Positions 2,593-19,766 of a DNA stretch of 29,607 nucleotides are shown here, piece by piece; within the stretch, counting starts at the first letter, position 1; each line of letters begins with the position of its first letter. The translations under genes and the position numbers were made by a program. Source of the DNA: a virus; IMG/VR virus record IMGVR_UViG_3300035670_008805, positions 1 to 29,607 of that record. One strand, given 5' to 3'. The notes beneath the pieces were generated by a model that made no database searches, was not told where the DNA came from, and worked only from the letters and a program-made list of their open reading frames with translations.

Positions 2593-5500
2593 CTAATAAC
2601 GAACAAAATCACCGGTATAAAAGGAAAGTAATATTGTATCCTTTAAACTGTTTCGGTTTGTATCTCCAAGATAGATATCTTCAAACAAATATTGAAATTT
2701 AGGTCTTTCTAACATATGACTTTCAATAACAAAGTTTGTTCCATAAAATTTAGTCTTTTTTGGGATTAATTGATACACGAAATTACCAATGTTAGTATCT
2801 ACCCATTTAAAAAATTCAACAAATTGTTTATAACTCACCTTATCAGTTAAACGATTAAAATAAACATTTCTTAAATTTTCTAAACCAGGATAATCAGCAG
2901 AAAATAATAATTCTGGATTTCCTAAAACATTGTCCAATTCATCTAAAGTAGAAAATATAGATGCAATATCTTGATTTAAAGCATCAACCATGCTGAAATC
3001 AATTGAAAATCTTGTATTGTCCGTTGGAATTTCTGATTTAGGTATTTCATATACCGGCGCTACCTGTGCCCAAGGAGTAACTTGAACTTCTTCAAATTGC
3101 TCAAATGAGCGTATACGAACTTTGTTTGTTGTGCTGGCTTCATCAAAATAAGGTGAAATATAACTGAAATAAAACTTTTCTGGATATATGATTTGAGAAT
3201 CTGAAATAAAATTAGTTCCAGATAATGTGAAATTATTTTGAGAATAATCAAATATATCAATATTTCCAGAACCATCAGACTGAGTAACGGCTTGTTCTGT
3301 TGAAGCATCAATTCTTAATCTTTGGAAAGATCCGGATTTATATGTTACGAAATTGAAATTTGTTAATGGATCTTGAACACCAATAGATTTATAATTTCTT
3401 ACGTGTTCTCTCCATTCTTTATCTTCAAGATATTTGCTCCAAAATCTTATTTGAGTGACGTAGCCATTAATATCTGTTATGCGACTTTCATCTGGTATCG
3501 CTATATCATTTAAGAAAGCAGTTGGTGCAGTATTGATTGAGCTTGAACCTATTATAAAGTAGGAACCGCTTGCATTTGAGGTTGCATTAATTTCATTCCA
3601 AACGTTAATACCGCCGCCTGCATAATCATTGAAATAAGATTGAGTAACGTAATATTGGAATATTTCTCCACCCATATTTTTTGCAACTCTCAAGAAATAT
3701 GAACTGGAAATAACGCTGTCTAAATTATCATCATTTCTTTGTCGTCCAAAAGATACATACCACTTATCTGTATCAAATATATTCACTCCAGATATATGCA
3801 TTTTGAGATATGGCGAACTCGAGTTATCATTCGAACGAACGTATAAAGTTAATGAACCGGTAATTTTATATAAATCGGTTGTATATTCCGGTTGCGCTAT
3901 TAGATTTGTTATTAATGCACCGTTATTGACAGTAAAACTTGATCCCGTAGTATAAAATCTTACAAGACTCACTTTATCTGTATAGTCATAATCAGAATAT
4001 GGATATTGATATGTTGCCTCATATGTCCAAGAACCTGAAGTCAACAAGCCATCTGACATTGTTCCCGCAACATCCGGATATCCAGGCTCTACTCTGCTGG
4101 CTGATAAAAATGGACTTGTTAATAAACCACCATCTAAGAAACTTACTTTTGAAGATATTTTAGTTCTTATGTCTCTTGCAAAATTTAAGTTTTGTTTTGA
4201 TGGACCACCAAATTCTCTAATTCTAAAATTATTATCTGGATCAATACCAAGAGAACGAATATATGTTTTTATTGAATGTATAGTTCCTTTTGATGTAACA
4301 ATTTCTCTTAAATTAACAAGAATTCTTCTCCACATTTGATTTTGAATATATTGAAGAGAATATTGATTTAAACTTGGATAGGTTGAAATATTTTCGCCAT
4401 TAATAAATTGATTAACTGTTGCATCTGTAAAAAATGGTGGTAATTCAAAACCTTGATTACGAGCAAAATCTAATAAAAACTGATCTGGAACAGTATCAAT
4501 ATTATCATAATCAACCGCAATCAAATCGCTAAATGCTTGTATGTAAAGTTTTAATTCATCAAAGAATTTAGCCCAAGTATATAAAAGAAGTAATAAGACT
4601 TGTGTTGCACCTAACCGGGTTGAACGAGGATCAGCTCCAGCAGTTAAAGTATCAACAATTGGACCTTGTTCTGTTTCCAAAGCGTCTTCTACTTGTCCTT
4701 CCCACAAATAATGACGAGGAATTAGTTTTGTTATTATATTTGGATTAACGTTATCATAGATACTGGCGCTGGTGTAATACGACGTGCGATAATCTACAAC
4801 GTCCGGATGATTTGGAAATAGAATTGGCGACAAATATAGATCTTCATATGTAACTGGATCTGAACCAGACCATAAAGATGAAGTGTTTACATTTCTTACT
4901 TGTAATACGTTATATGCATTATAACTTAAATTTCCATGTAAACTATTTGCAGAATAATCAATGACAATTGGTGAAGTGCTACCAGAAGGTTCATTAAATT
5001 TATAATAAAGCTTTAAATTATCTTGAGCAAAAATGCTTTTTTGATAATTGTCGTAAATATCTTCTCGTGAACGTATTGTGTGCCATATACGTAAATCGTC
5101 TAATGCACCAGATAATGTATTATTTGGTAAAAACGTTGCTAATTGACTACCAGAACCAATGTATAAATTATTTAATACATCAACATCTCCATATTCAATT
5201 GGATTAGAACCGGTTCCATAATAAACACCATTCAAATAAGCAGTAATTCCTTCACTTCCTGGTGTTCTATTCCATATCCAAGCAAAATGATTCCAAGAAT
5301 CTTTTTCAAATACTACATCCATTGATTCATAAACTGAACCGCTGGCTAATATCAAACTACTTGTTGCATATGTTGTAGATGTTGAACTGGTCAATGCACA
5401 TAAAAATCCTGTTTGACCATCATGTTTTGAAAATATAACTTGATTGTCATTTGTTTTTGGTGGAACATTAATCCAATATTCAAATGTCATTGAATTATAT

Positions 5501-15315: not shown

Positions 15316-16922
15316 TCACTTGATATTGACTAATTTATTTTTTGGAGCTGGATTAATACCTTGTAAACTCCAACGCTTTAATGTATTTGAATCTTTTTTA
15401 GCTTTAAAGTCTTCAACACATTTTAACATAGTTTCATGCCATTGTTGAACCATATTTTCATATTTAAATTCGTGATCCAAATATTCAGCAGCACGTTCAC
15501 GAAACTCAGCTTTCTTTTCATCAGTCCATTCATAAATCTCCATAAACGCATCTGAAATTTGTCGCTCAGTACAGAAATCTTCAAAAATATAGGGAACCAT
15601 TTGTGAACCAACTAATGAACGCTTGGCTGGTTCTATTCCAACTCCATATTGATAACCATTACGATAATCTTCTACTTGACGTGTTTCTCCACCGGTTTTA
15701 AGAGCTATCATTGGTTTACCAACTTGCATAGAAATAAGAGTAGAAAGACCAAAGCCTTCATTCTTAGAAACGTTAATACAAACATCAGAAAGATTATGAA
15801 GAATATTCATTTGCTCAAATTGAAGACGTTCATTTGAAAACCAAACATGATCATGCAATCCAAACATATCAGATGTTGCAAGAAGATTTGGACCTTCTTG
15901 ATCTGTTGGATCTGTATGCATCATTAATACAGCATTACGATGACCATGTTTCTTTTCAAGATCATCAAGGAATGTTTTCCAACCAAACAAAAGATCATTT
16001 GGCATTTTGCGAGTAGCATTACGATTTACCCAAATAGCTTTAAACCAATCTGCACGAGGTCCAAAATTTTGCTTTTTTAATTCTACAATTTTATCTTCGG
16101 GAAGTGGATAATAAACTTGTTTAGGAAAGGTATGAGGAATATAATTTGTTTTTTCTGGAAAATGCGGTTTTACAAGTTCATAAGTTTTATGTGAAAGACA
16201 GTTGATTAAGTCTGTGCTTTCATACCAAGGAAAATTAAAAGCTGGATATGGATCATTGTCCCAAACGTGCCAATATACTATTGGACATACTTGACGAATT
16301 TCATCTGCCATTTCCCAAACCCAAATAAATTGTCTTGGATCTGTAAATAAGAAAATGGCATCTGGTTGTTCTGAGATAAGAAGTTGGCGAATAATATCTT
16401 TGTTTCCAAATCCATCTACTGGTTTAACTATGAAATCTGGATTAACGGCGATAGTATCATACTTGGCATGTTTCATTGCACCACCTAAACAACGAAATGA
16501 CCATTGACCGGTTTTAATAAGACCATCAATTAAGAAACGAGCTTGCACCCCGACACCCGAAGGAGCTACATAACTTATATTATTTCTAATATAACCAGAC
16601 TATATCATCATATGCTTTAACATATGCTGGGCGCTGTCGGATCATTACCATGAGCTTTAAGGGCTTTTAGGTTAACCGTAGTCGTTGAACCTTTCTCACC
16701 GTTTCCGGACAGAGACTTGGCTGCTGATTGTCCAATCGTCATATTTTTTAAACATTCACGTTTATCGTTTCTGATTGCGTTGTAGTATATGATGCTTAAG
16801 GAGTTTCCAGCAATTCACCCAGTTTTACATCCACTAACTCAATTCAATGGATGATCACTTAACGTGATTACTTTATATTTCTTTTTAAAATTGAACGCTG
16901 TCAAGAAATCACTATCACTCAT
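15316..16922 (-). CDS. Glycosyltransferase, GT4-like, interrupted by a group I intron
   Basis: The gene is in two exons: exon 1 from ATG 16922 to about 16864 and exon 2 from 16573 to 15316. Splicing gives about 438 aa beginning MSDSDFLTAFNFKKKYKVIT and continuing YVAPSGVGVQARF, which restores the Gly-rich first loop of a GT-B fold. Exon 2 read alone appears to start at an internal GTG (16548), which loses this loop. The C-terminal half has VWFSNERLQFEQMNILHNLS, then NEGFGLSTLISMQVGKPMIA, the GT4 donor-site pattern. A plausible ribosome-binding site, AAAGGA, lies 8 nt before the ATG, inside the 3' end of the homing endonuclease gene, with which it overlaps by 8 nt. The enzyme probably acts with the adjacent GT4 in building a phage-encoded glycan. 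Exon ends are inferred, not measured. Confidence 0.8.
16574..16863 (-). ncRNA. Group I intron (IA-like), ORF-less, about 290 nt
   Basis: Read on the minus strand, all four conserved group I core elements occur in order: P (AATTGCTGGAAACTCC, within 16794-16820), Q (AATCAGCAGCCAAG, within 16712-16732), R (TTCAACGACTACGG, within 16670-16691) and S (GATATAGTC, within 16595-16609). Pairings can be drawn: P3 16820-16824 with 16674-16678, P7 16679-16683 with 16598-16602 (GACTA/TAGTC), P2 16828-16853, and a 7-bp P9 16575-16594 directly before the terminal G at 16574. P1 is ATCAC/GTGAT around 16854-16868. A hairpin with CATATG arms just before S resembles the P7.2 region of T4-type IA introns. No ORF lies inside. 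The 3' end (G then TTATG) is well supported; the 5' end is uncertain by 3 nt either way. Confidence 0.88.
16864..16880 (-). repeat. 17-nt direct repeat, copy in glycosyltransferase exon 1
   Basis: AAATATAAAGTAATCAC (minus strand) is the 3' end of exon 1 up to the inferred intron junction. It is identical to 17820-17836, about 0.96 kb upstream on the other side of the homing endonuclease. Confidence 0.9.
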
Positions 16923-17787
16923 ATATAAAATCCTTTATCTTTTTTAGCATATCTTCTTTATTGTTTTGCATATCAGAAGCCCATACTATCATTACAGAAT
17001 AACCTGCCTCTTTTATTATGTTTTTTCTTTTTGCATCAGCTTGCCATATTTCTTCAGCAGTTTTGTTCTTCACTTTGTGAAAATAATTTGCTGGATATAT
17101 TTTTGGGTTTGCGTGCCAGTAGTCTCCATGATATTCAATTACTTTATTTAAATCTGATACCAATATATCTGCAAATATTTTTGTATCTTTTACTGATAGT
17201 TTAACTTCTAATTCTGCTGTTGAATTAATACTTTTAACATAATCAAAAAGCTCTTGTTGTGGCTTTGAAATTTTTCTATGTTGAGCCAACATGTATGCGT
17301 TAGTGACTCCATATTTTTTACTTAAAGACGTTTTCTGTTTATCTTTTTGATCTTTTGTAAGGCGACGACCGAACATCGGATTATTGATGCCGGAAAATAA
17401 ACGTTTCATATACTCTTTTTTACATTCTGGACTGCATACTTTATGTCTTGTAGTTTTTTTATATCTCGGCGGATAATAAATCTCAGTATCACAACAAAAA
17501 CACTTAGCTAAAAACCCAGATTTATCATTACTATGAGATATCCATTTGTCATAGGTTCCATTTATAACATGATATTTTGAAGCGCACGAACGATTGCAAA
17601 ACTTTCCTTTTTTATATCTAATACGTTCAAAACTTTTTTGACAATATAGACAAGTTCTTGCTTCTAATATATTTTTATTACTTTTTTCTCTTCTGTTTTT
17701 ACGATGTTTTACAAGACAGATTTGAGAACAAGTCTTTTTTTGTGGATTTCCTTCAAATTCTTTATGGCAGATATTACACGTATTCAT
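16915..17787 (-). CDS. Free-standing homing endonuclease, Vsr/EDxHD-like with Zn fingers
   Basis: This 290-aa protein opens with three Cys-rich, treble-clef-like zinc motifs: C4/C7-C20/C24, C46/C49-C64/C68 and C96-C99 with C118/C122. A NUMOD3-type DNA-binding motif follows at about 131-145 (SGINNPMFGRR). The nuclease domain at about 176-275 has EVKLSVKDTKIFADILVSDL, then KVIEYHGDYWHANP, and ends in AGYSVMIVWASD. This looks like the PD-(D/E)XK/Vsr-like (EDxHD) class of phage homing endonucleases; H220, D222 and H225 are likely catalytic. It should make a sequence-specific double-strand break. The gene is outside the adjacent intron, flanked by two copies of the glycosyltransferase 5' end, and overlaps exon 1 by 8 nt. 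No good ribosome-binding site precedes its ATG, so expression may be weak or coupled. Confidence 0.85.
   Translation of the reverse strand: MNTCNICHKEFEGNPQKKTCSQICLVKHRKNRREKSNKNILEARTCLYCQKSFERIRYKKGKFCNRSCASKYHVINGTYDKWISHSNDKSGFLAKCFCCDTEIYYPPRYKKTTRHKVCSPECKKEYMKRLFSGINNPMFGRRLTKDQKDKQKTSLSKKYGVTNAYMLAQHRKISKPQQELFDYVKSINSTAELEVKLSVKDTKIFADILVSDLNKVIEYHGDYWHANPKIYPANYFHKVKNKTAEEIWQADAKRKNIIKEAGYSVMIVWASDMQNNKEDMLKKIKDFIYE
16931..16936 (-). promoter_or_regulatory. Ribosome-binding site for glycosyltransferase exon 1
   Basis: AAAGGA on the minus strand, 8 nt before ATG 16922, lies within the last codons of the homing endonuclease. It supports exon 1 as the real translation start of the split glycosyltransferase. 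Confidence 0.55.
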
Positions 17788-17815
17788 ATATGATAAATAT
17801 ATGCGGAGTAGGAGT

Positions 17816-17875
17816 TCATGTGATTACTTTATATTTTTTCTTGAAATTAAATGGACTTAAAAAATCTTCTGACAT
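17816..17875 (-). pseudogene. Duplicated, truncated 5' end of the split glycosyltransferase
   Basis: A 19-codon frame, MSEDFLSPFNFKKKYKVIT then TGA, parallels exon 1 of the downstream glycosyltransferase (MSDSDFLTAFNFKKKYKVIT). Eleven consecutive residues (FNFKKKYKVIT) are identical, but several codons differ synonymously (for example AATTTCAAGAAA against AATTTTAAAAAG), so this is a diverged homologue, not a recent copy. AGGAG lies 6 nt before ATG 17875, a stronger ribosome-binding site than that of exon 1. Homology stops at AATCAC, the inferred intron insertion point, after which comes a stop. The following bases (ATGAACTCCT) have a weak resemblance to the start of exon 2 (TTATGTAGCTCCT). 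Likely a remnant left when the endonuclease entered; it could still act as a short leader for the endonuclease. Confidence 0.7.
17820..17836 (-). repeat. 17-nt direct repeat, copy in truncated exon-1 remnant
   Basis: Identical to 16864-16880. The identity stops at the base matching the inferred intron insertion point (next base A here, G in the intron-bearing copy). Confidence 0.9.
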
Positions 17876-17881
17876 TCATAT

Positions 17882-17940: not shown

Positions 17941-18402
17941 TTAAGAAATTGTAATTTTACACGTGTTTAAATCATCATGACATATGCCAATATATTGCAT
18001 TTTTTGCCAAAGCTTGTCGGTCCAGAAAATAGAATTATCAGACGGTTGATTGATAACACTATTTGATATAAACACCTCTGGATACGTCCAAATATATCCT
18101 TTATTAGTCATGGTTATCTTATCATTTTCATGCCAGAACCAATGAAAATTAGTTTTAGATAACCATTCTATGGCAGCAATGTTTTTAGCATGGATCCAAA
18201 GATTTTCACTAAAATTTTCTATATATGTTTGATTAATAGAATATTCTGGTGCATCGTGACCAAGATACAGCATATCTTTCTGTAACCACAAATCCACTTC
18301 AGCGTCATATCCATAATCAATAGCAGCTTTTATATAGTCTGGTTTGTTTTCAAATTCGAGTTTTTTTCCAGACCAATTACCTCTATGAGCTATTAATCTC
18401 AT
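17941..18402 (-). CDS. Short GDPD-type phosphodiesterase
   Basis: A 153-aa protein starting at ATG 18402 (MRLIAHRGNWSG). The frame is open further upstream, but this start overlaps the previous stop as ATGA and begins at the conserved strand. It has the glycerophosphodiester phosphodiesterase/PI-PLC-like signature: H6-R7-G8, E18-N19, E35 and D37 (AEVDLW), then LGHD with H49. Later WIHAKN, FHWFWHEND and GYIWTYP are typical of the short GDPD-like proteins found in sugar gene clusters. These residues are the metal and catalytic set, so the enzyme is probably active on a phosphodiester. It is shorter than standard GDPDs (about 240 aa). It is coupled to the HAD/nucleotidyltransferase fusion, so a substrate in the same sugar-phosphate route is likely but unidentified. 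Confidence 0.82.
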   Translation of the reverse strand: MRLIAHRGNWSGKKLEFENKPDYIKAAIDYGYDAEVDLWLQKDMLYLGHDAPEYSINQTYIENFSENLWIHAKNIAAIEWLSKTNFHWFWHENDKITMTNKGYIWTYPEVFISNSVINQPSDNSIFWTDKLWQKMQYIGICHDDLNTCKITIS

Positions 18403-19766
18403 ACAGGATTTTTCTCGAGATAATATTCTAAATCTTCTGGAGTTCCAAGACCCCACATTTTTTCAATATTATATGTAATAAACTTTTTATTATCAGATAT
18501 CGCCTCATTGAATACAGGGCAAACATAGAACTCGTTATTAACTCTAATATTTTTGGATATCATTTGTTCAGCATACTTTACATAATCGCTGCCTTTAGCC
18601 CAATAATATATTCCTACAGTCGCTATATCACTTATAGGATTTTTTTCTGCCACTTCAGTTACAAACCCATCAACTCCTACTTTAGCAAAACTCCATTTAG
18701 GATGAGTTGCTTTAAAAGACACAATACCACCATCAACATCTTGATCTGTCATTTGATAGTAAAAACGATTACTATCCCATTCAACATATTGATCAGAATT
18801 AACAATCAAAAGATGATTATTGTTATTAATATGTTCTTTGGCTAAAAGAGTAGTGCAAGCAGCTCCTTCGGTAACTTGATCAACATATACGATTTTGCAT
18901 CCAGGCGCAATTTGATTTAATGTTTCAGATACCTTATGCTGCTCATGTTCTCGCTGAACTACAAAAATATAATTGCCATCAATATTAAGGTTATTAACAA
19001 CCTTTTCAATCATAGGAATTCCTTGAACATCGATTAGCGGCTTAGGTAACTCATATCCCGCCTTTTGAAATCTGCTGCCATGACCAGCCATAGGAATTAA
19101 AACATTAAAATTATTGCCATTCCACTTCATTAGCTTCTTCTTTCTGTTAAATTTTGTTATCTCTTTAAAAAGATTAGAAACGTTAACTTCAATTGTATTT
19201 TTGACTTTTACAACGTTAGCACCGCTTTCGAAGGCGGCTTCTAATCCATATGGACTATCTTCAACAATAACACAATCTTTAGGCGTTAAACCAAAATAGC
19301 TAATCGCTTTAAAATATATCTCTGGATTTGGCTTTGAATATTTTGCATCTTCGTTTGAAAAGACTTTATCTACATATTGTAACAGTTCCATCTTAACTAA
19401 AACAGAATATGCCGTGTTCGCAACACTATTTGTTGCAACACATATTTTATAGTCTTCCGCCTTAAGCTTTTCAAACAACTCAGTTATGTGAGATATCGGC
19501 TTAACAAAATCATATATATACTGAAGAGTATGAAGCTGTTTACTTTTGTTAATTTTGTCATACAATGATGTATCAAGTTTTTTATATCTTGTTAACAATT
19601 TAAGCTTTTCTTTAGTTGGTAATCCATCATATATTTTATAATGCTCATCTAAAGTTATAAGATAATTTTCTCCATATGCACTTAAAGCCTTGTTTAAACA
19701 AACATAATGAGAGTCTTTCAACTCTACCAAAACTCCATCTAAGTCAAATATTACTAGTTTAATCAT
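18399..19766 (-). CDS. Bifunctional HAD phosphatase / sugar nucleotidyltransferase
   Basis: This 455-aa fusion joins two enzymes. Residues 1-205 form a HAD-like phosphatase: VIFDLDGVLVE (nucleophile D8, acid D10), ATNS (T112), SKPNPEIY (K145) and VIVEDSPYG (E169, D170), of the beta-phosphoglucomutase-like type. Residues about 220-455 form a GT-A-like nucleotidyltransferase: LIPMAGHGSRF, followed by ELPKPLIDVQG, then LIVNSDQYVEWD. This is the order of sugar-1-phosphate NTP transferases (G.G.R...KPL). A sugar phosphate could be dephosphorylated or isomerised and another activated to an NDP-sugar. The exact sugar cannot be read off. TGAGGA precedes the ATG. The neighbour downstream is the GDPD, overlapping by 4 nt, and GDP-fucose genes lie upstream. 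Confidence 0.85.
   Translation of the reverse strand: MIKLVIFDLDGVLVELKDSHYVCLNKALSAYGENYLITLDEHYKIYDGLPTKEKLKLLTRYKKLDTSLYDKINKSKQLHTLQYIYDFVKPISHITELFEKLKAEDYKICVATNSVANTAYSVLVKMELLQYVDKVFSNEDAKYSKPNPEIYFKAISYFGLTPKDCVIVEDSPYGLEAAFESGANVVKVKNTIEVNVSNLFKEITKFNRKKKLMKWNGNNFNVLIPMAGHGSRFQKAGYELPKPLIDVQGIPMIEKVVNNLNIDGNYIFVVQREHEQHKVSETLNQIAPGCKIVYVDQVTEGAACTTLLAKEHINNNNHLLIVNSDQYVEWDSNRFYYQMTDQDVDGGIVSFKATHPKWSFAKVGVDGFVTEVAEKNPISDIATVGIYYWAKGSDYVKYAEQMISKNIRVNNEFYVCPVFNEAISDNKKFITYNIEKMWGLGTPEDLEYYLEKNPV

Follow-up and report, generated by a model that had tools for sequence, protein, structure and literature searches.

A likely collaborative-homing cassette with a replacement first exon in a phage glycosyltransferase gene

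Analysis of the IMG/VR virus record IMGVR_UViG_3300035670_008805 (positions 1 to 29,607; this whole stretch of 29,607 nucleotides (nt) is referred to as the window) revealed a glycosyltransferase (GT) gene interrupted by a group I intron that lacks an open reading frame (ORF). A homing-endonuclease-like gene (HEG) lies directly next to this intron, between two copies of the first exon of the GT gene. We consider it likely that the locus is a collaborative-homing pair, which moves as a single cassette together with a replacement exon 1. The components of the locus are, from 5′ to 3′:

17816..17875, minus strand: truncated upstream exon-1 copy, with ATG at 17875, 19 codons (MSEDFLSPFNFKKKYKVIT) and a TGA stop at 17818-17816
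17788..17818, minus strand: spacer X, from the truncated exon to the endonuclease start, opening with a stop codon in frame with the exon
16915..17787, minus strand: HEG encoding 290 amino acids (aa), outside the intron and on the same strand
16847..16922, minus strand: replacement exon 1 (exon 1′), 76 nt, encoding MSDSDFLTAFNFKKKYKVITLSDHP and ending one base into a Leu codon
16569..16846, minus strand: ORF-less group I intron of 278 nt (Rfam RF00028; boundaries from intronless relatives and P1/terminal G)
15316..16568, minus strand: exon 2 of the GT4-type GT gene, whose relatives are encoded at 80 loci recovered

The group I core was recognized by Rfam model RF00028 at 85.6 bits (gathering threshold 50), and the intron has a P1 with a U·G pair at the 5′ splice site as well as a terminal G. 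The ORF calls and the RF00028 match agree with the initial annotation, made from the letters of the window, which had placed the endonuclease next to, and not inside, an ORF-less intron. Exon 1′ and exon 2, when joined, encode a 442-aa GT matching its intronless relatives from end to end. When the region was compared with phage DNA, 107 records were retrieved; among the matches listed, all fall on the intron. In another contig, L418 (relatives of the locus are denoted by L numbers), the same intron core word occurs twice, at 3113-3134 and 4766-4787, i.e. about 1.65 kb apart.

The position of the intron was established on the basis of intronless relatives, eight close ones of which run KVITLSDHPLAPSGVGVQ unbroken across the junction; about 60 more distant ones also read through it, mostly as SDHPL-x-x-SGVG. 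Since these relatives are uninterrupted, and in view of the P1 pairing, the intron is placed between CCAT and TAGCTCC, i.e. between T and TA of the Leu codon of HPL. A site at GTAATCAC, as proposed initially, is ruled out by the same two lines of evidence. Exon 1′ extends 16 nt past that site, to GATCATCCAT, and the upstream copy halts after GTAATCACA (17819), 16 nt short of the intron site. The anatomy described in the initial annotation is thus present in the sequence, including an upstream boundary formed by a diverged exon-1 copy, but the copy does not end at the insertion point, which the intronless relatives locate 16 nt downstream, and the annotation had not recognized the downstream copy as a replacement exon.

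The relatedness of the two exon-1 copies was assessed by local alignment. The upstream copy (MSEDFLSPFNFKKKYKVIT, followed by its stop) and exon 1′ (MSDSDFLTAFNFKKKYKVIT) align with a score of 44, compared with a maximum of 36 in 2000 shuffles and 28 for the best unrelated window segment; the 11-mer common to both copies is not significant by itself. Two exon-1 copies are present in the window, in L014 and in L102/L119. An assembly artefact or tandem duplication was ruled out, because independent contigs show this arrangement with differing sequences, and because the two copies have diverged within one genome (43/57 nt identical in L014).

The P1 pairing indicates which copy is used. In the window, CAUCCAU of exon 1′ pairs with GUGGAUG of the intron guide, and in L102 the corresponding CAUCCGU pairs with GCGGAU, a compensatory change relative to the window. 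The upstream copy of L102 reads CAUCCAU, which would mismatch the guide of that intron, and the CAUCCAU element is missing from the upstream copies of the window and L014. Judging from the compensatory P1 and from upstream copies that are either mismatched or devoid of the element, exon 1′ is the copy that the intron splices, presumably to exon 2.

The predicted HEG product has Cys-rich (zinc-finger-like) N-terminal repeats, with repeated Cys pairs in its N-terminal half, a NUMOD3-like stretch (a label derived from the relative in L256) and a C-terminal Vsr/EDxHD-like nuclease domain. The C-terminal part matches viral VSR-like and endonuclease families, and PDB sequence searches with the HEG returned only weak Vsr matches and spurious low-complexity ones. 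The AF2 model of the C-terminal domain has a pLDDT of about 90 or more. Using Foldseek, this model was matched to the catalytic domain of I-Bth0305I (3r3p; target TM 0.73, probability 0.99, E 0.08) and to Vsr (1cw0; probability 1.00, E 0.009), with 1vsr also matched. The predicted structure confirms a Vsr-like catalytic fold, and with it the Vsr/EDxHD likeness noticed at the outset. An alignment of seven relatives (A1) shows no variation at the catalytic-type residues D207, E218, H225, H237 and D251, and E179 is conserved in most of its rows. Between the window and L014 the HEG has a nonsynonymous divergence (dN) of 0.079 and a synonymous divergence (dS) of 0.37, and the resulting dN/dS of ~0.21 points to selection for function. 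EDxHD endonucleases have been described inside introns or between the split inteins of fractured genes, whereas the gene described here lies outside the intron and is joined to a replacement exon.

No HEG was found in bacterial and archaeal genomes, and named phages contain no close relative of either the HEG or the GT (best matches of 25-43% and 26-32%, respectively). Close HEG relatives were not found beside unrelated genes, a setting that the initial annotation would have taken as evidence against a link to this site. Distant ones (~25-42% identity in the catalytic part) occupy other sites, e.g. between apparent split-intein halves in RecA-like and terminase genes. Nuclease-domain relatives between apparent split-intein halves were distinguished in L015/L016 (3324-5787), L017 (3944-7096) and L018 (4628-8890). 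The joined GT contains no extra residues in comparison with intronless relatives, so there are no intein halves at this gene break.

Comparison of intron and endonuclease occurrence in relatives, a check suggested in the initial annotation, came out strongly in favour of the proposed pairing. The intron was identified at the same GT site in at least 12 viral contigs (the window included), 11 of which could be assessed; L229 was left out, since its contig ends inside the intron and only the 3′ part of the intron is present. In all 11 assessable contigs the HEG, its C-terminal remnant or a cut-off end immediately precedes exon 1′. Five of them (the window, L014, L102, L119 and L414) have an intact HEG, L228, L374, L390, L399 and L409 have a C-terminal remnant, and in L362 the HEG is cut by the contig end. 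Only one of the 73 intronless loci (L256) has a HEG; intronless rows of the tree set were counted only where at least 200 bp of upstream sequence was available. Within this set the HEG accompanies 9/9 intron-bearing and 1/73 intronless rows (Fisher 3.4e-11, relatedness ignored), and in phylogenetically independent pairs differing in the intron the HEG differs in the same direction in 6/6 cases (p 0.031).

The nearest cassette-bearing relative is L014, the contig to which L004, L115 and L248 belong; its gene order matches that of the window, with the HEG 84% (aa) and the GT 85% identical. The order is also shared by L102 and L119 (HEG 45%, GT 62% identical to the window), which were found by intron sequence alone, as were L362, L374, L390, L399, L409 and L414. 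A second intron scan and a wider GT set yielded L228, L229, L362, L374, L390, L399, L409 and L414. For loci obtained from the intron scans the association is not circular, because the scans were made without the HEG. They used exact 22-base words, so the introns were sampled and the counts are a lower bound. In L399 (reverse complement), a possible N-terminal HEG fragment (1070-1285; E ~0.001) precedes a GDP-mannose-dehydratase-like gene, with a C-terminal fragment (2344-2583) after it, as if the dehydratase-like gene had landed inside, or displaced, a HEG.

Intron presence on a tree of 86 GTs requires 8 gains or losses, at least 7 of them forced by well-supported branches. In this tree L014 groups with an intronless allele, and the window falls outside this group and is not the sister of L014. 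The dS between the window and L014 is 0.37 for the HEG, and 1.63 for GT exon 2, 1.29 for GT2, 1.33 for fcl, 0.96 for orf135, 0.83 for GMD and 2.23 for orf160, while orf279 is saturated. Similarly, the intron and exon 1′ are 92-98% identical, compared with ~80% for exon 2. These differences indicate that the cassette is younger than the backbone genes of the two contigs. In L014 the upstream copy is of the resident type, sharing 60/62 nt with intronless relatives; exon 1′ of this contig is of a foreign type, with 55/59 nt identical to exon 1′ of the window and 43/57 to its own upstream copy. This is the pattern that would be left by a cassette that entered a resident gene and brought a new first exon with it. 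The co-occurrence, the independent contrasts and the younger age of the cassette together argue that the HEG and the intron were acquired as one.

We infer endonuclease cutting, the blocking of cutting by the intron, splicing and co-transfer from this arrangement, and propose the following scenario. In a co-infected cell the endonuclease would cut exon 1 of an intronless GT gene, either at the intron site or up to ~20 bp away from it. The cassette-bearing genome would serve as the template for repair, so that the spacer, HEG, exon 1′ and intron would be copied as one piece, and the recipient's own exon 1 would remain as a short truncated frame ending at the join. The GT would be rescued by exon 1′, which is started inside the HEG end and would be spliced by the intron to exon 2. 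The new allele would be immune, its upstream copy lacking the 3′ half of the target and its exon 1′ being interrupted by the intron. The HEG could later decay from its 5′ side, with its 3′ end and the start region of exon 1′ retained. Collaborative homing is favoured on account of the adjacency of the two elements, their co-occurrence in all assessable cases, the younger cassette and the disruption of the target in both exon copies. The parts of the scenario with direct sequence support are the anatomy, its recurrence, the association, the younger cassette, the exon origins in L014 and the decay series.

Traces of recombination are visible at the edges of the cassette. L102 and L119 are ~99% identical except, among other places, in a tract of ~100 bp of exon 2 that is 77% identical and flush with the intron 3′ end; it is likely a result of co-conversion from a different donor. 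The left junction lies 16 nt 5′ of the intron site in the window and L014, and 6 nt 3′ of it in L102. Because these junctions differ, the scars do not fix the cut position, and we predict a cut within the interval from 16 nt 5′ to 6 nt 3′ of the intron site, with no precise base.

The decay of the HEG appears to be constrained by its overlap with exon 1′, since the HEG stop overlaps the start of this exon (ATGAGTGA). The GT should tolerate the loss of all of the HEG except its end, because the start of exon 1′ lies there, and this may be why C-terminal remnants persist. Purine-rich ribosome-binding sequences were noticed by eye near the HEG end (AAGGAG in L102 and GGAGG in L414). More tentatively, we suggest that the free-standing nuclease, replacement exon and intron constitute a three-part phage unit with its own gene repair and scar, in which the HEG came first in a series of origin and decay. 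If this is true, the series would lead from L256 (HEG alone), through the window, L014, L102 and L414 (HEG and intron), to L228, L374, L399 and L409 (remnant and intron), and would show both the origin and the decay of collaborative homing.

Several observations weigh against the collaborative-homing interpretation. All of the relatives are metagenomic contigs; L414 has no upstream exon copy, so exon duplication is not universal; the left junctions are not the same in all alleles; and the HEG can apparently live at the GT gene without the intron. The best evidence for the last point is L256, in which a HEG relative overlaps the start of an intronless GT gene. L255 is 99.2% identical to L256 over 4.1 kb up to the GT start (at ~197 and ~529, respectively), and has no HEG within its 195 bp of upstream sequence. 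Their first exons differ by a short, mostly synonymous patch, as expected if the HEG-bearing allele is protected. L255 and L256 form a natural pair without and with the HEG, which points to a cut region.

This pair also fits a different explanation, i.e. ordinary homing of a free-standing HEG into the 5′ end of the GT gene by intronless homing, with protection by the exon-1 differences and the intron as an independent element or a passive passenger. The main difference from collaborative homing is whether cutting takes place at the intron site. A fully independent intron is at odds with the finding that each of the 11 assessable intron alleles is accompanied by the HEG or what is left of it, and with at least six independent contrasts. 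Passive carriage is still compatible with the data, as no more than 76 nt separate the intron from the HEG and co-conversion would take it along regardless. On balance, we regard this explanation as unlikely.

An old cassette that was inherited vertically, lost many times and is no longer mobile would account for the frequency of remnant HEGs and for the range of the cassette, which spans GT divergence down to ~42% identity. This seems highly improbable, because the HEG dS between the window and L014 is several times below that of most backbone genes, L014 groups with an intronless allele and not with the window, its upstream copy is resident-type and its exon 1′ foreign-type, and the HEG dN/dS suggests a gene under selection. 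Finally, although two exon-1 copies exist and group I introns commonly contain an endonuclease gene, a reading in which the upstream copy serves as the genuine exon 1, with one large HEG-containing intron from 17818 to 16569 and exon 1′ as a pseudo-exon, has almost nothing left to it and was rejected by the P1 pairing (the window and L014 upstream copies lack CAUCCAU and the L102 guide matches exon 1′ only), by the stop codons that end the upstream copies and by other intron alleles that keep exon 1′ without an upstream copy.

Collaborative homing as such is already known, reportedly also from T3/T7-like phages through the work of Bonocora and Shub in 2009. In cyanophage S-PM2, the free-standing endonuclease F-CphI and the psbA group I intron take part in this process (PMC6083498, summarizing Zeng et al. 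2009). The likeness to the locus described here is that the intron would shield the genome that carries it and the HEG would mobilize the intron, as the passages on F-CphI in that source describe. However, F-CphI is an Endo VII-like nuclease with another target gene, and its cleavage has been demonstrated, whereas that of the present endonuclease is predicted. These passages of PMC6083498 mention no duplicated exon, whereas in the window the HEG stands between a truncated resident exon and a replacement exon, and the relatives display a series of decay. The terL gene of phage ICP1 has an adjacent T5orf172 HEG, and according to the section of PMC10448857 concerned the origin of such an arrangement is not clear. 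Both the T3/T7-like and the ICP1 systems involve other nuclease families and other genes, and exon duplication is unmentioned in that section (PMC10448857).

The principle of a replacement part is also known, from mobile ORFs in fungal mitochondria that carry a duplicated gene end, i.e. in atp6 of Allomyces and in atp6, atp9, cox2 and nad3 of Glomus (PMC3630166). There, the inserted HEG brings along a foreign version of the gene part that it displaces; this version restores a hybrid gene, and the native end remains as a relic (PMC3630166). The mitochondrial ORFs replace the C-terminal end, with nucleases of the LAGLIDADG or GIY-YIG type in Glomus (PMC3630166); the phage cassette would replace the N-terminal exon, with a group I intron adjacent. 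The cassette would work alike without being a member of this group, and would carry the replacement-part idea beyond fungal mitochondria, into phages and to the starts of genes. In comparison with the open-access literature, the new features are the nuclease family in a putative collaborative role, the replacement first exon with its truncated-exon scar, and the series of alleles that starts with the HEG alone and ends with a decayed cassette. A single target gene thus presents intronless, HEG-only, full-cassette and decayed-cassette alleles across at least six independent contrasts, and its scars predict the join of the break, which makes origin, co-transfer and decay testable.

The region between the truncated exon and the HEG shows further features. 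A resident ribosome-binding site precedes the truncated exon-1 copy, and the left junction of the cassette falls after 17819. Spacer X contains ACTCC-ACTCC, which was also read by eye in L102. A short reading frame, MNSYSAYIYHI (17786-17819 in the window; MNSYSTYIYRV in L014), overlaps the stop of the truncated exon and the HEG start, and possibly couples the translation of the two. Hairpins are predicted at the HEG start in the window (17788-17818), in L014 (~4970-5003) and in L102 (just upstream of 4232, minus strand). The predicted hairpin masks the HEG ribosome-binding site in L102 (12-bp stem), and the HEG start codon in the window and L014. Such structures resemble the translational control of HEGs in phage T4. 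Elsewhere in the window, a fused HAD-type hydrolase and nucleotidyltransferase of 455 aa is encoded at 18399-19766, inside a sugar-gene cluster.
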